From NCBI RefSeq assembly GCF_003430825.1, contig NZ_CP024047.1:248001-312000 (forward strand): a stretch of 64,000 bases of DNA, written 5' to 3'. Within the stretch, counting starts at the first letter, position 1; each line of letters starts with the position of its first letter. The DNA comes from Natrarchaeobaculum sulfurireducens. GTDB taxonomy: Archaea > Halobacteriota > Halobacteria > Halobacteriales > Natrialbaceae. This document shows, piece by piece, positions 1,368-29,705 of this stretch. The translations under genes and the position numbers were made by a program. Under the pieces are notes generated by a model. The model was not told where the DNA came from. It saw only the letters and a program-made list of their open reading frames with translations, and searched no databases.

Positions 1368-1611
1368 ATGCCTACTCGGACGGAGTCCGATGTCTTTCGC
1401 ATCGGAGCCGCGGCGGACATGCTTCAGCTCTTCGCCGACGCCCACGAGACGGCGGTTACCATCCCGGACCTCGTCGACGCGACAGGGGTCGCTCGCTTGC
1501 CGGATTGGCCGACCATCGACCCCTTCGACAGTATTGGTGCCGTCCGGGTTCGAGAGCCGTCACAACGACACTCCGTCTCGATCGCCCAGGATGTCTGTGT
1601 GCTGAAACGGA
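1368..1611 (+). pseudogene. Remnant of a winged-helix (nucleotidyltransferase-linked) regulator
   Basis: From ATG 1368 the frame encodes DVFRIGAAADMLQLFADAHETAVTIPDLVDATG, then a disturbed stretch (VARLPDWPTIDPF) where the recognition helix should be, then SIGAVRVREPSQRHSVSI. This resembles the N-terminal winged helix of haloarchaeal HTH-nucleotidyltransferase proteins, but the recognition helix is scrambled. After about residue 80 the frame runs into Arg- and Ser-rich sequence unlike any halophilic protein. No nucleotidyltransferase GSxARG motif follows. I read it as a decayed 5' fragment. The flanks (1205-1367 and 1612-1919) hold nothing I recognise. Confidence 0.5.
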
Positions 1612-1919
1612 GCGATAGCTGGTGTCTTCGGACTCTCCGCCCTCGTTCGCGGCTCGAGCGTCGACCCGAACGAGTCAGTATCCTAACGTTCTTTACGATT
1701 GGTTGGGTACCAAACAGACGCGCACGAAAGTGCGCAGCGAGCCGGAGTCCACGGCACCAACCAAGCACTCCGGCTCACAAACGGCCCCCGCATCGCGGGA
1801 GCACGTCATGCTTTCAGTCGGTGAAATAAAGACCTGCCGACGTATTGCCGAACCAGTGTCACTGGTTCGCTAGCTGGGCTGCTCGCCGCGACGCCGGGGT
1901 CGACTATCGAAGTTCCACT

Positions 1920-2099
1920 ATGGTTTCGAAAGTCACCCTTCGCTGCGACTGTGGCACCGACATCTGCACGGACCCACCCGATGGCACGGTCACGTGTCCG
2001 AACTGCGAGTTGACGTTCGTGACGACGATCACCACACTCACTCCCGATCACGATGCACGCCGCTATCGTCAGGGCTCTCACTCGTATTGCGGCCCGTGA
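1920..2099 (+). CDS. Small zinc-ribbon-like protein
   Basis: 59 aa from ATG 1920. The N-terminal half has Cys at residues 9, 11, 16, 26 and 29 (CDCGTDIC and CPNC), a plausible single zinc knuckle or ribbon with two strand-like segments around it. The C-terminal 20 residues are less acidic and could be degraded. The gene overlaps the following HalOD1 gene by 47 bp in a different frame, which is unusually long for a haloarchaeal operon. Either the C-terminus is an extension caused by a frameshift, or the HalOD1 protein starts later. No specific function can be assigned; zinc-ribbon miniproteins of this size are common in Halobacteria and often act as regulators or protein-binding modules. Confidence 0.55.
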   Translation: MVSKVTLRCDCGTDICTDPPDGTVTCPNCELTFVTTITTLTPDHDARRYRQGSHSYCGP

Positions 2100-2271
2100 G
2101 GGTCGCGACGTGACCGACCTCCCACCGGTGTCCGACACCGTCGATCCCGAGGCGGTCGGGGCGCTACTCGAGTCCGGCACGGACGTCACCGTTCGCTTCG
2201 AGTATGCGGGGTATCGCGTGGTGATCGGACCCGAACTCGAGGCAGTGGAGGTGATCGAGGCGGACCGGTAG
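2053..2271 (+). CDS. HalOD1 output-domain protein
   Basis: 72 aa consisting almost entirely of a HalOD1 (halobacterial output domain 1) module: an N-terminal helix (IVRALTRIAAREGRDV), the LPPVSDTVDPEAVGALL segment, then the strand pair VTVRFEYAGYRVVI. HalOD1 domains occur in Halobacteria either fused to receiver/PAS domains or, as here, as stand-alone proteins; their ligand is unknown. Two more stand-alone HalOD1 genes lie within 7 kb (3456-3839 minus and 9004-9279 plus). ATG 2053 lies inside the preceding zinc-ribbon gene, so translation may be coupled to it. Confidence 0.8.
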   Translation: MHAAIVRALTRIAAREGRDVTDLPPVSDTVDPEAVGALLESGTDVTVRFEYAGYRVVIGPELEAVEVIEADR

Positions 2272-2925
2272 ACGCTGGGGGCTCGAGGTTGAACAGCGAC
2301 TCACCTGTGTTCGCTCGAGTCGGGTTCAGTACGTCTCCGCTCTGAGTGGACGTGTACTTTTCAATCTCCCTGGATGGGTGTGCTCGAGAAGTAGTCGGAA
2401 GCAGTTCGATCGGCTGTGGGTTCGATCTGTCACCCGGTGTTGAGCCGACGTGCATTAGGTCGCTATTCCGTTACAGGCTGCCCTCGTGATCCTAGGGCAC
2501 CTTCTCTAGCTTGTCGGACTCATTCACCGCTCGTTCCGTTTTATTGGGTAGTATAAATCGGCATACTGAGCCCCGCTGAGGGCTATCTTGACTGTGGGGT
2601 CAGACTATGAACACAACCAAATCGTGTTCGTGTTCATATCCGGAAAATCGATCATCGTAGGGTACGACTCTTGACGGTAGTACCGAAGTTGTGTTCTTCA
2701 GATAGAGTCCGGCGGAAAAGTTTGCAGACTGACATAATGGGTCTGCTGAATATAGAGGGTGGATGCAGCAGCCGAACACTGTTCGTTTCAGACACTCAAC
2801 GACGAAGCATCCGTTATGTATGCGTGCGTATCGATCGCTGAGGGTTCTGCCAATTCTGATAGTTGTTCAAGTAGTCGTGCAAACCCAAAGTGCGCATTCA
2901 GCAGCAAATCGATTACAGGACCAGG
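2272..2925. other. 654-bp gene-free stretch with one inverted repeat
   Basis: No frame here has haloarchaeal (Asp/Glu-rich) composition; the open frames are short and Ser- or Arg-rich. The sequence becomes AT-richer from about 2460, marking the left edge of the accessory island. The one structured element is TGAACAC (2608-2614) facing GTGTTCGTGTTCA (2624-2636): a 7-bp inverted repeat containing a second in-phase GTGTTC. It could be an operator, but no gene start is close to it. Confidence 0.5.
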
Positions 2926-25681: not shown

Positions 25682-26197
25682 TCACTCGAGCCCCAGGTCG
25701 CCCTCGAGATCGTCGTAGTCGGGAAACTCGGGCCACTCGCTGGCGACCCAGGCGGCCTGGACGCTCAGATCTGACTCGAGGGCGAAAAACGCGGGTCGGG
25801 GCTCGCTGAGTCCGTTCATGTCGTCGAGGTCGTGGGCGACGCCGTACGTCTCCGCAACCGCGTTTGTGGGATCGCTGAAAACCGCGAACGGACAGTCTTC
25901 GTCCTCGAGAAAGCGTGTGATGGCGTACGGCGTCGAGATCGTAACGCCGATGACGCGGCCGGCACGCTCGTCCCAGTCCCGATCGCGGAGTTCGTCCCAG
26001 ACGTATTTACCGACGAACGAGCCGATCATCGGCGTGAACACGAGGATCGTCGGCCCGTCGGCCTCGCTCGCAAGGGTCGACAGCGTTCGGTCCTCCCAGA
26101 ACTCGTCGGTTACGAGCGGCCGAGTGAAATCGGGCGCGTTGTCGCCGGGTCTGGGGTGGTCGGCTTCGGCTAGCTCGACGACGTCGAAGTCGACCAT
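25682..26197 (-). CDS. Redoxin (AhpC/TSA-like) lacking the peroxidatic cysteine
   Basis: 171 aa thioredoxin-fold protein: PGDNAPDFTRPLVTDEFW near the N-terminus, then LVFTPMIGSFVGKYVWDEL where peroxiredoxins have FxPxxxTxxC. Alignment of that motif puts Gly63 at the peroxidatic position, and the only Cys in the protein is Cys102 (DEDCPF). So it is unlikely to be a working peroxiredoxin; it may act as a structural or binding partner, or use Cys102 differently. Its start overlaps the stop of the glutaredoxin-like gene by one base (TGATG), a tight pairing that implies joint function in thiol chemistry. Confidence 0.85.
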   Translation of the reverse strand: MVDFDVVELAEADHPRPGDNAPDFTRPLVTDEFWEDRTLSTLASEADGPTILVFTPMIGSFVGKYVWDELRDRDWDERAGRVIGVTISTPYAITRFLEDEDCPFAVFSDPTNAVAETYGVAHDLDDMNGLSEPRPAFFALESDLSVQAAWVASEWPEFPDYDDLEGDLGLE

Positions 26198-26559
26198 CAG
26201 GTGTCACCTCCGCTAGCGTCGCGGTCTGCGGCTGCCGGTTGCTCTCCGACGCTCGTCTCCGTCCCGTCGCCGTAGGTCGACTCGAGGTAGTCGACGATGT
26301 TCGCGCTCTCGGCCATCGTCACGCCCGTGTCCTCGTCGACGATCACGGGGACCGTGCGGACGCCGGCGACGCGCTTGACGACGTCTCGCTTCGAGTGCAG
26401 CGGCTCGACGAACCGGGAGCGATACTCGAGGTCCAACTCCTGCAGCGTCCGGGTGACGCGCTCGCAGTACGGACACGCCTGCAGCCGGTAGAACGTGATC
26501 GGCGGGTCGGTCCTGTCGTCTCCCCCGCGACCGTCTCCTCGGCCGGTACTCGCGTTCAT
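26197..26559 (-). CDS. Glutaredoxin / GST N-terminal-like protein
   Basis: 120 aa from ATG 26559. A glutaredoxin fold with the CPYC redox motif at residues 29-32 (FYRLQACPYCERVTRTLQEL), the cis-Pro in VRTVPVIVD and the glutathione-site-like TMAESANIVDYLES that follows. The C-terminal 30 residues are acidic and disordered. Halophiles use gamma-glutamylcysteine in place of glutathione, so its thiol partner probably differs from bacterial glutaredoxins. It is followed directly by the redoxin (1-base overlap). Both Cys of the dithiol motif are intact, so it may supply the redox chemistry for the pair. Confidence 0.87.
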   Translation of the reverse strand: MNASTGRGDGRGGDDRTDPPITFYRLQACPYCERVTRTLQELDLEYRSRFVEPLHSKRDVVKRVAGVRTVPVIVDEDTGVTMAESANIVDYLESTYGDGTETSVGEQPAAADRDASGGDT

Positions 26560-27027: not shown

Positions 27028-27990
27028 CTAGCCGTCGATTGCACAGTCGGCACACGCCACGCAACTCGTGATGTTGCTGAGGCTGCAAAAGGTGTAGAAG
27101 CACGCGACACAGAGGATGGCACCAGCGCCGGTCGAACCGGTTGCACAGACGGGCCGGCAGCGATGACACTCCGTCAACAAGCTGATTAGGTAGTCTGCGC
27201 ATTCGGTACAGGGCTGTCCACACGGGGAGACGAGATCCCCGAGTTCCGCGGCGAGAATTCCCGATACTTGGTCGATAATGATGTCCCGCGCCAGGTTTTG
27301 CGATTCGACGATCGGCACCGCTTCGGAATCCTCGTCGATCGCGTGCGCCGAATCTTGCAGCGCTACTTCGTCTCCGTCTGCCACGTCGATCAGGTACGAT
27401 TCTACGTCGAAATCCCGTCCGTCCGAAGCGCTCGTGAAAATATCGGCCCTGAACCCGTCGATGTCGGTCCCGGTGTAAACCGTCGACGCGTCCCCCTCTA
27501 TCGGAACCGTCGAGAGAGCCTTCCGCTCCTCTCGAGGAGTGGCGGCACGTCTAAATACTGCTTCGGATTCACCCCCCGATAGCGCGGCGTGGGTGTTATT
27601 TGGCACGTCTCGATACGTCGGCGGGGTGTTCGCAGTGTTTCCATTTTTGAAGTGGAAGACGGCATCTACGTCATCGTCGCCTTCTCCGACGCGAAGGGTT
27701 CCGTACTCGAACTCCACTTTCGTCACTACGGTATCGTTCCCTTCTCCGATCGTTTTCTGTTCTACGTCCGCATCGGTCGGGATCCCTTCCTCTCCCAGCT
27801 CCTCGAGGATCGATCGCACTTCGGGAACTTCGGTTAGGTGCGCTATCTCCGAGACCCGTGCATCCTTCCAGGCGGAGACCGCTCCGCTGAGTCCGGTTAT
27901 TCCTCCGACCCCTACGCTCGCACCGACCGCGGTCTTTCGCAACACGTCCCGCCTGTTCGTTCCGCTCGATTGGTTAGTTTGCTGTCCCAT
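27028..27990 (-). CDS. Tat-exported halocin C8-like precursor with 12-Cys C-terminus
   Basis: 320 aa in three parts. Residues 1-40 are a twin-arginine signal (TNRRDVLRKTAVGASVGVGG, then ITGLSGAVSA). Residues 41-256 contain no Cys and are acidic: helix SEVPEV-like RSILEELGEEG, strands KVEFEYGTLRVG, VDAVFHFKNG, and a later FDVESYLIDVADGDEV. Residues 257-320 carry all twelve Cys (257, 261, 264, 275, 278, 282, 294, 297, 302, 310, 313, 316) and a hydrophobic Gly/Ala centre. This domain order, Tat leader then an immunity-like middle and a small Cys-rich hydrophobic tail, is that of halocin C8 precursors, in which the N-terminal part (HalI) gives immunity and the tail is released as the peptide antibiotic. 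C8 has ten Cys, here there are twelve. No dedicated exporter is adjacent. Confidence 0.7.
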   Translation of the reverse strand: MGQQTNQSSGTNRRDVLRKTAVGASVGVGGITGLSGAVSAWKDARVSEIAHLTEVPEVRSILEELGEEGIPTDADVEQKTIGEGNDTVVTKVEFEYGTLRVGEGDDDVDAVFHFKNGNTANTPPTYRDVPNNTHAALSGGESEAVFRRAATPREERKALSTVPIEGDASTVYTGTDIDGFRADIFTSASDGRDFDVESYLIDVADGDEVALQDSAHAIDEDSEAVPIVESQNLARDIIIDQVSGILAAELGDLVSPCGQPCTECADYLISLLTECHRCRPVCATGSTGAGAILCVACFYTFCSLSNITSCVACADCAIDG

Positions 27991-28019: not shown

Positions 28020-28310
28020 TATTTTCTGCAGATGCGAACGGGAAACATACGGCCGTACTCGAGACTTGGATAGAGTGGCGAAGGCTCGGGATGAAACGGG
28101 TGTAAGAAACGGAAAACCGGGTGCCGTAGCGACGAAAGATGGTCGTTGTAATAGGGCGGGGCGCTCTCAGGAGCGTAACTGCACGGTTCGCATTGCGAGA
28201 CTTCGGCGTGACAACCGCGAGGTCCGCCGGCGGACCGATTCGAGGGGGTGCGCGAGGCGAGCGCGTTTCATAAAGCGTTATTCGCTCCGGGTGCGAACGT
28301 GTCACAGCTA

Positions 28311-29705
28311 ATGGCGCTGTCTCTGCTGCTGGAACTTTCGGTTCCGCTAGCCGCGTACGATCTTCCCTTCGTGGATCTGGCGGTTGATCAGTCCACCGTG
28401 ACCACCGTGGGAGTGCTCGCGGTGATCGTCCTCATCGGACTCTCCGGGTTCTTCTCCTCCTCGGAGATCGCGATGTTCAACCTGCCAAAACATCGCCTCG
28501 AGGGGATGGTCGACGACGACGTGGAGGGGGCAGAGCTGGTCAAACAGCTCAAAGAAGACCCGCATCGGCTGCTCGTGACGATTCTCGTCGGGAACAACAT
28601 CGTCAATATCGCGATGTCGTCGATCGCGACTGCCTTGCTCGGGCTCTATTTCGGTGGGCTAGTGGCGGTCGTTCTCGCGACGTTCGGCATCACAGCAATC
28701 GTCCTGCTGTTCGGCGAGAGCGTTCCGAAATCCTACGCGGTCGAAAACACCGAATCGTGGGCTGTCCGCATCTCGAAGCCGCTGAAAGCGACGGAGTACC
28801 TGCTGTTTCCGCTCATTGTTCTTTTCGATTACCTCACTCGCCAGGTCAACCGGCTGACGGGGTCGACCGGAGCGATCGAGACGCCCTACGTCACTCGCGA
28901 CGAGATCCAGGAGATGATCGAATCCGGCGAACGCGAGGGCGTTCTCGAGGAAGAAGAACACGAGATGCTCACCCGCATCTTCCGGTTTAACAACACGATC
29001 GTCAAGGAAGTGATGACGCCACGCCTCGACATCACGGCGGTTCCGACGGGCACCGACATCGACGAAGCCATGGAAACCTGTATCCAGAGCGGCCATGCGC
29101 GTATCCCGATCTACGAGGGGAGCCTCGACAACGTATTGGGCGTCGTCCACATCCGTGACCTCGTCCGGGATCTGAACTACGGCGAGACCGAAACCGACGA
29201 CCTCGAGCTCGGCGACCTTATCCAGCCGACGTTACACGTTCCCGAGTCAAAAAACGTCGACGAAATGCTCTCCGAGATGCGTGAAAACCGCATGCACATG
29301 GCCATCGTGATCGACGAGTTCGGCACCACCGAAGGCATCGTCACGATGGAGGACCTGATCGAAGAGATCGTCGGCGAGATCCTAGAAGGAGGAGAGGACC
29401 TCCCGATCGAGGAACTCGACGAACGGACCGTCCTCGTCAGGGGCGAAGTCAACATCGAGGAGGTCAACGAAGCCCTGGAGATCGAACTTCCCGAAGGCGA
29501 GGAGTTCGAGACGATCGCTGGCTTCATCTTCAACCGCGCCGGCCGACTCGTCGAGGAAGGTGAAGAGATCACCTTCGACGACGTCCGTATCACCGTCGAG
29601 AGTGTCGAGAACACCCGTATTATGAAAGCTCGACTGCACAAATTCGAAGAACCAGTCGACGATGAGGTGCCGGAAGCCAACGGTACCCCAGACGCCTCCG
29701 AGTAA
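28311..29705 (+). CDS. CNNM/CorC-type DUF21-CBS membrane protein
   Basis: 464 aa from ATG 28311 (GTG at 28299 is also possible). The N-terminal DUF21/CNNM membrane domain (about residues 1-200) has four hydrophobic segments, [17 protein letters not shown], and [14 protein letters not shown]. Two CBS motifs follow ([49 protein letters not shown] in pieces), then a C-terminal CorC_HlyC transporter-associated domain ([34 protein letters not shown] in pieces). These proteins are Mg2+ (or divalent-ion) transport or sensing factors; the CBS pair probably binds ATP or adenosine derivatives. Complete and single. Confidence 0.93.

Follow-up and report, generated by a model that had tools for sequence, protein, structure and literature searches.

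What is left for a peroxiredoxin-fold protein to do once its peroxidatic cysteine is gone and its gene shares a base with that of an intact glutaredoxin (Grx)? The question arises at one locus of the haloarchaeon Natrarchaeobaculum sulfurireducens, in the window analysed here (64,000 nucleotides of NZ_CP024047.1, positions 248,001 to 312,000), whose relevant features are collected in Table 1. The initial annotation had read at this locus a redoxin with glycine at aligned position 63 in place of the catalytic cysteine and only one other cysteine, encoded directly behind an intact CPYC Grx gene with a one-base overlap. All of this is borne out: the column in question is cysteine in nine of nine canonical peroxiredoxin (Prx) rows, the single cysteine of the window redoxin is residue 102 (the C of EDEDCPF), and the coordinates, the strand and the overlap of the Grx gene are confirmed. 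The closest named relatives of the genome belong to Natrialbaceae, among them the MAG Natrialbaceae archaeon B1-Br10_E2g2 at 80%. A sigma-70/terminator scan, a method ill-suited to archaea, returned nothing.

Table 1. Features of the redoxin/Grx pair in the window (window coordinates) and of the second pair at locus L003 (coordinates of that locus)
Feature	Coordinates	Strand	Basis
Cys-less PrxQ/AhpE-fold redoxin (pseudo-peroxiredoxin), 171 aa	25682..26197	-	AhpC-TSA match and AlphaFold2 model
Redoxin codon 63 (Gly, GGT) at the peroxidatic Cys position	26009..26011	-	Alignment to canonical Prx
CPYC glutaredoxin / GST_N_3-like partner, 120 aa (P0001)	26197..26559	-	Pfam
Grx CPYC active site, residues 29-32	26464..26475	-	Translation; CP[YF]CE in 126/127 loci
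TGATG one-base stop/start overlap, Grx to redoxin	26195..26199	-	Stop TGA 26199-26197, start ATG 26197-26195
L003, second pair: redoxin	1453-1932	-	Locus reading
L003, second pair: divergent CPxC Grx	2037-2273	+	Locus reading
L003, second pair: convergent cupin	2301-2735	-	Locus reading

The redoxin is an AhpC/TSA homologue (Pfam AhpC-TSA, 54.3 bits against a cut-off of 26), and its AlphaFold2 model, computed from an alignment of 50 sequences, is a peroxiredoxin fold (pLDDT 93.1, pTM 0.90) in which the cysteine position lies in the first turn of helix 61-72. The best Foldseek match of this model is Bcp4 (3hjp; E 1.4e-10, TM 0.77), and VIA-align places AhpE (5c04; Z 20.6, rmsd 2.0, 147 aligned) in a tie with it (Z 20.5). 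The archaeal PrxQ/BCP proteins (Bcp4 3hjp, PrxQ 2cx3, 2ywn/4g2e) have their fold and sequence ancestry in common with the window redoxin, which differs from them in lacking both the PxxxTxxC motif and an active-site arginine in register. AhpE of Mycobacterium tuberculosis is a 1-Cys Prx reduced by the Grx-like mycoredoxin-1 together with a low-molecular-weight thiol. In function, too, there is a likeness, as both systems match a Prx fold with a reductase of the Grx type; in the haloarchaeal pair, however, the peroxidatic cysteine is gone, the Grx has nothing to reduce, and the genes are overlapped or fused. In the hybrid PGdx of Haemophilus, an active Prx5 followed by a Grx, both domains share one chain and are catalytically intact; fused haloarchaeal relatives of the window pair share the single chain, but their order is Grx-redoxin, their redoxin is PrxQ/AhpE-like and without the Prx cysteine, and most pairs, that of the window included, are split. 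Thiol chemistry has also been lost, and the fold reused for binding, in Cys-less thioredoxin-fold pseudoenzymes such as the calsequestrin domains; by analogy the haloarchaeal redoxin could be of this kind, with the difference that its gene is obligately coupled to that of a thiol enzyme. PMC3091736 describes a further family of Prx-like domains, whose Cys sites are shifted or absent. Peroxidase duty is covered in the same genome by an intact PrxQ encoded elsewhere (motif PGAFTSVC, L002).

The partner matches Pfam GST_N_3 (59.5 bits) and Glutaredoxin (44 bits), both above cut-off, and its CP[YF]C active site is that of the dithiol, CPYC class of glutaredoxins; against NCBIfam no named Grx equivalog exceeded its cut-off, the best score being that of Uxx_star (35.1 bits, cut-off 66). 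Over 127 partner loci, a set not reduced to distinct sequences, the active-site motif is kept in all except one, V70 is found in 126, and P71, E84 and S85 in all 127; we take V70/P71 to be the cis-Pro loop, and E84/S85 the ES motif, by which a Grx recognises the gamma-glutamyl moiety. Such retention is consistent with the earlier proposal that the Grx carries the chemistry. The one exception comes from a draft assembly (L149, genome G021, around 1554-1754 on the minus strand), in which the redoxin is kept and the Grx is readable in its C-terminal part only, without the CPxC half, which reflects either an assembly error or a degraded partner.

The pair is close to universal in the class. A redoxin orthologue is present in 189 of 194 Halobacteria genomes, and a phylum-wide sample of 148 genomes gave matches at E<=1e-20 for 23 of its 24 Halobacteria, the remaining 124 genomes, from other classes, having none. 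The five genomes without an orthologue (G020, G046, G093, G104 and G119) yield remote matches only, the best at 2.2e-18, and the type-1 Grx is absent from the same five: a Grx search at 1e-20 comes up empty in G020, G093 and G119, and in G046 and G104 the top-scoring Grx fall in family 2 (see below) and in the unpartnered group. Every one of 113 distinct redoxins lies directly behind a Grx gene on the same strand; the junction is a one-base overlap in 89, a four-base overlap in two, another overlap in one, a gap of 0-10 nt in 20 and a gap of 51-150 nt in one. The open PMC subset of the literature yielded no paper recognised as being about this Grx-redoxin pair.

These 113 redoxins were obtained from 128 loci (L001, L005-L033, L040-L117 and L149-L168) in several draws with overlapping species, one of them made with patterns derived from the redoxin of the window itself, and in this subset of the orthologue-bearing genomes residue 63 is Ala in 80, Gly in 16, Ser in 10, Thr in five, Pro in one and Cys in one. 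Whether Gly63 is fixed had been put forward as a check; it is not, and a special role for this glycine is rejected on the ground that alanine is the commonest residue. It is the lack of cysteine that is fixed, in 112 of 113, the aligned stretch as a whole containing none in 89 sequences, one in 21 and two in three. The initial annotation had also allowed that the window copy might simply be inactive should most orthologues keep the cysteine; they do not, and this inactive-copy reading is rejected given the spread of the orthologues over nearly all genomes and their shared lack of it. The lone orthologue with Cys63 (L033, genome G045) is nested in the Cys-less clade and makes a natural revertant-like case. 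In genus g6 (L115-L117) the redoxin, 193 aa long in L117, carries an insertion at about residues 74-80 by the numbering of the window redoxin and is still Cys-less and Grx-paired.

Other positions of the former active site have changed as well. The position of the catalytic threonine is Ser, Ala or Asp in nearly all redoxins of the window's family (family 1). Column 135, arginine in nine of nine canonical and 11 of 11 family-2 rows, is proline in the window; over 105 family-1 rows it is Pro in 42, Val in 34, Leu in 20 and Ile in five, and it is Pro in eight of eight fusions. Family 1 has an invariant arginine of its own one residue ahead (R134), and the idea that this is the catalytic arginine retained was withdrawn, as the register puts the canonical one at column 135. 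Other residues have become fixed: 20 columns are invariant among 50 redoxin sequences, the newly invariant residues include R26, E32, W34, M57, G59, Y65, P110, M127, P156 and F158, and M57, G59, Y65 and R134 show no variation across the 61 non-redundant sequences of family 1. On this sequence evidence the redoxin loop is rebuilt under constraint and not merely decayed. Median dN/dS is 0.33 for the redoxin and 0.22 for the Grx, by a rough NG86 estimate over the 588 of 595 pairs that passed a dS filter, distant pairs included and some of them near saturation; together with the class-wide conservation, these medians exclude chance.

Fusion has occurred naturally. A query with the fused protein P0002 over 391 Halobacteria genomes retrieved eight uninterrupted Grx-redoxin open reading frames, in three families, and one more comes from a plasmid. 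P0002 itself, from Natronorubrum aibiense (NZ_CP045490.1), has the Grx in front with its CPYC kept and the redoxin cysteine replaced by serine; the fusion of G418 (L217), one of the eight, is identical to it. The fusion on the Halorientalis marina plasmid NZ_CP095488.1 (L210:2698-3522) reads RPFC instead of CPFC, so that the Grx nucleophile is lost and both domains of this plasmid copy are without one. Cupin genes flank the plasmid pairs L208 and L210. The fused redoxins carry a different loop, PLNWGGKS. No fusion was present among the first 104 loci (L005-L033 and L040-L114), the fused forms having come to light via plasmids and the fused-protein query, and back-translated patterns gave no match on viral contigs.

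A second and more distant Cys-less redoxin (33% identical, C3:3105921-3106397) exists in the window's own genome, next to a divergently transcribed CPYC Grx. Its family, family 2, is found in 36 of 194 Halobacteria genomes, and in all 30 loci fetched (L169-L198) the cysteine column is Ala, Thr or Asp. A CPxC Grx adjoins the redoxin in 26 of these and none was found beside it in the other four; exactly those 26 also have a cupin gene after the Grx. Cys17 is conserved in 30 of 30 family-2 redoxins, so this family is not thiol-free.

In the redoxin tree each of three groups is set off by a single branch: family 1 with the fusions (99/98), family 2 (98/99) and the canonical Prx (100/98). The Cys-less redoxins together are separated from the canonical Prx at 100/98; the rows for the family-2 loci L192 and L194, which a sequence pattern had classed as canonical, were dropped from this tree and from the alignment with canonical Prx. 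In the Grx tree, which has 83 columns only, 35 partnered rows (18 operonic, nine divergent and eight fused) are set apart from 20 unpartnered haloarchaeal Grx by one branch (95/93). Both trees group the fused with the operonic forms and leave the divergent form outside. The plasmid fusion L210 nests inside the split-pair clade in redoxin and Grx trees alike, apart from the seven other fusions; the redoxin trees support a clade of these seven at 93/86 and 64/71, the Grx tree at 95/90. The separate placement of L210 implies at least two fusion events. The simplest reading of these sequences would be a single ancestral Cys-less redoxin/Grx pair whose two genes were duplicated together and underwent fusion on more than one occasion. 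As the redoxin tree is unrooted, with a root assumed among the canonical Prx, a single loss of the cysteine is likewise only the simplest reading.

Of the split redox machine first proposed for this locus, it is the coupling of two proteins that is supported, by adjacency, the conserved overlap, the joint absence from five of 194 genomes, the fusions and the clade of partnered Grx. For the window, calling the two genes fused in expression is accurate, and in some relatives they are literally a single open reading frame. Some of the linkage may nevertheless be plain conservation of gene order, since the pair sits among unrelated conserved genes: the class-wide arrangement (L040-L114) is a divergent CNNM/CorC gene (68 loci), Grx, redoxin and Sua5 (67 loci). 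In the window CNNM is still near (28248-29705), the Sua5 neighbour is missing, and the close neighbours are a gene for a Tat-signal, Cys-rich protein and DUF5518/NOG1-type genes. The former (27028-27990, minus strand) has a Tat-signal-like match just below cut-off (TIGR01409, 15.9 bits), no Pfam match and a Cys-rich C-terminal stretch, which to our eyes resembles a halocin C8-type precursor.

A possible link to oxidative stress comes from Haloferax. In Haloferax marinum the distance to the rpoA1-type gene is 85 kb for the Grx of the pair and 12 kb for another Grx; set against the position of rpoA in H. volcanii, these distances alone suggest that the Grx of the pair is HVO_0251 and the 12-kb Grx HVO_0337 in that species. 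HVO_0337 was set aside as the Grx of the pair, the two genes being distinct in H. marinum. According to the portion of PMC9426492 consulted, OxsR ChIP-seq peaks lie ahead of both HVO_0251 and HVO_0337 under hypochlorite, and HVO_0337 rises 12-fold in an oxsR-dependent manner. Archaeal or haloarchaeal Grx and gamma-glutamylcysteine are discussed in PMC7278568 and PMC9240420, the consulted parts of which do not mention this redoxin.

Near-universal in the class, the haloarchaeal pair of Cys-less redoxin and Grx points to a two-part redox device, and both the single-chain fusions and the existence of a second Cys-less redoxin/CPxC Grx pair support a two-part functional unit. The gene pairing, the fixed loss of the cysteine and the natural fusion are direct observations; we infer the physical complex, its docking face, the thiol used and the clients. 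In the reading that we prefer, and to which we give about an even chance, the redoxin would serve as a conserved subunit, a pseudo-peroxiredoxin without catalysis of its own, which docks a Grx of the gamma-glutamylcysteine type and aims it, the two forming a thiol-disulfide device of haloarchaea. The ancestor of the redoxin would have been a PrxQ/BCP-type peroxiredoxin. Descent from it would have cost the redoxin its peroxidatic cysteine, and within this branch also the in-register position of the catalytic arginine, and would have left intact the Prx fold and with it the face where a Grx would normally dock to reduce a Prx. It is at this same face that Grx-like proteins reduce canonical Prx; with no cysteine left to reduce, a transient enzyme-substrate contact may have turned into a lasting non-covalent complex. 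The Grx, through its CPYC motif, would supply the only conserved thiols of the pair. Its conserved cis-Pro loop and its ES motif make the use of a gamma-glutamyl thiol probable, namely of gamma-glutamylcysteine, which stands in for glutathione in haloarchaea. Under oxidative stress the redoxin could then aim the Grx at certain client proteins, thiolated or oxidised, or shield it or set it allosterically for them.

The same rebuilt loop can be read in another way, as a composite active site: the nucleophilic Cys29 of the Grx would enter the former Prx pocket in trans, and the two proteins together would reduce peroxides, persulfides or sulfenates, the redoxin contributing the pocket and the Grx the thiol. 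The four residues invariant throughout family 1 argue for a pocket rebuilt and not eroded, the fusions hold both modules in one chain, and the consulted part of PMC7278568 describes a Grx-like PDO reducing a Sulfolobus Prx; but the deviating loop of the fusions means that the pocket is not uniform, the catalytic arginine column is mostly Pro, Val, Leu or Ile in family 1, and we consider this reading unlikely. Taken to its end, it would make the pair a split peroxidase, the Grx lending its cysteine to the emptied Prx pocket. Such a reductase of peroxides, persulfides or sulfenates would depend on gamma-glutamylcysteine, would be near-universal yet unrecognised in haloarchaeal redox physiology and would have been fused into one chain at least twice, a proposal that we hold to be distinctly unlikely.

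Co-expression in an oxidative-stress operon could also be the whole of the connection, with the redoxin acting on its own as a holdase chaperone or sensor that kept a moonlighting function of Prx. A chaperone function of Prx is known (see, for example, PMC6590489), and the operon form by itself would suit co-regulation; the repeated fusion to a Grx, the divergent pair and the separate clade of partnered Grx require more than that, which leaves this explanation rather unlikely. The one-to-one coupling and the translational overlap are also what modulator/enzyme pairs display, and the redoxin might inhibit or store the Grx as a plug on the CPYC site that oxidative or ionic stress would release; in that case the fused proteins would be locked in the inhibited state unless some gate opened them, and we regard this as very unlikely. 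That the redoxin is a decayed peroxiredoxin, a relic without function, agrees with the absent cysteine, the replaced threonine and the altered arginine column, and it is almost certainly wrong in view of the retention of the gene across the class, its median dN/dS, its invariant columns and the fused forms.

In the plasmid record examined, the annotation of the two members of the pair goes no further than 'GST N-terminal domain' and 'redoxin domain' proteins. Should the redoxin indeed be a docking subunit, the pair would be a clear evolutionary case of a Grx-Prx contact made permanent after the substrate cysteine was lost, and it would offer a handle on how redox control based on gamma-glutamylcysteine reaches its targets.
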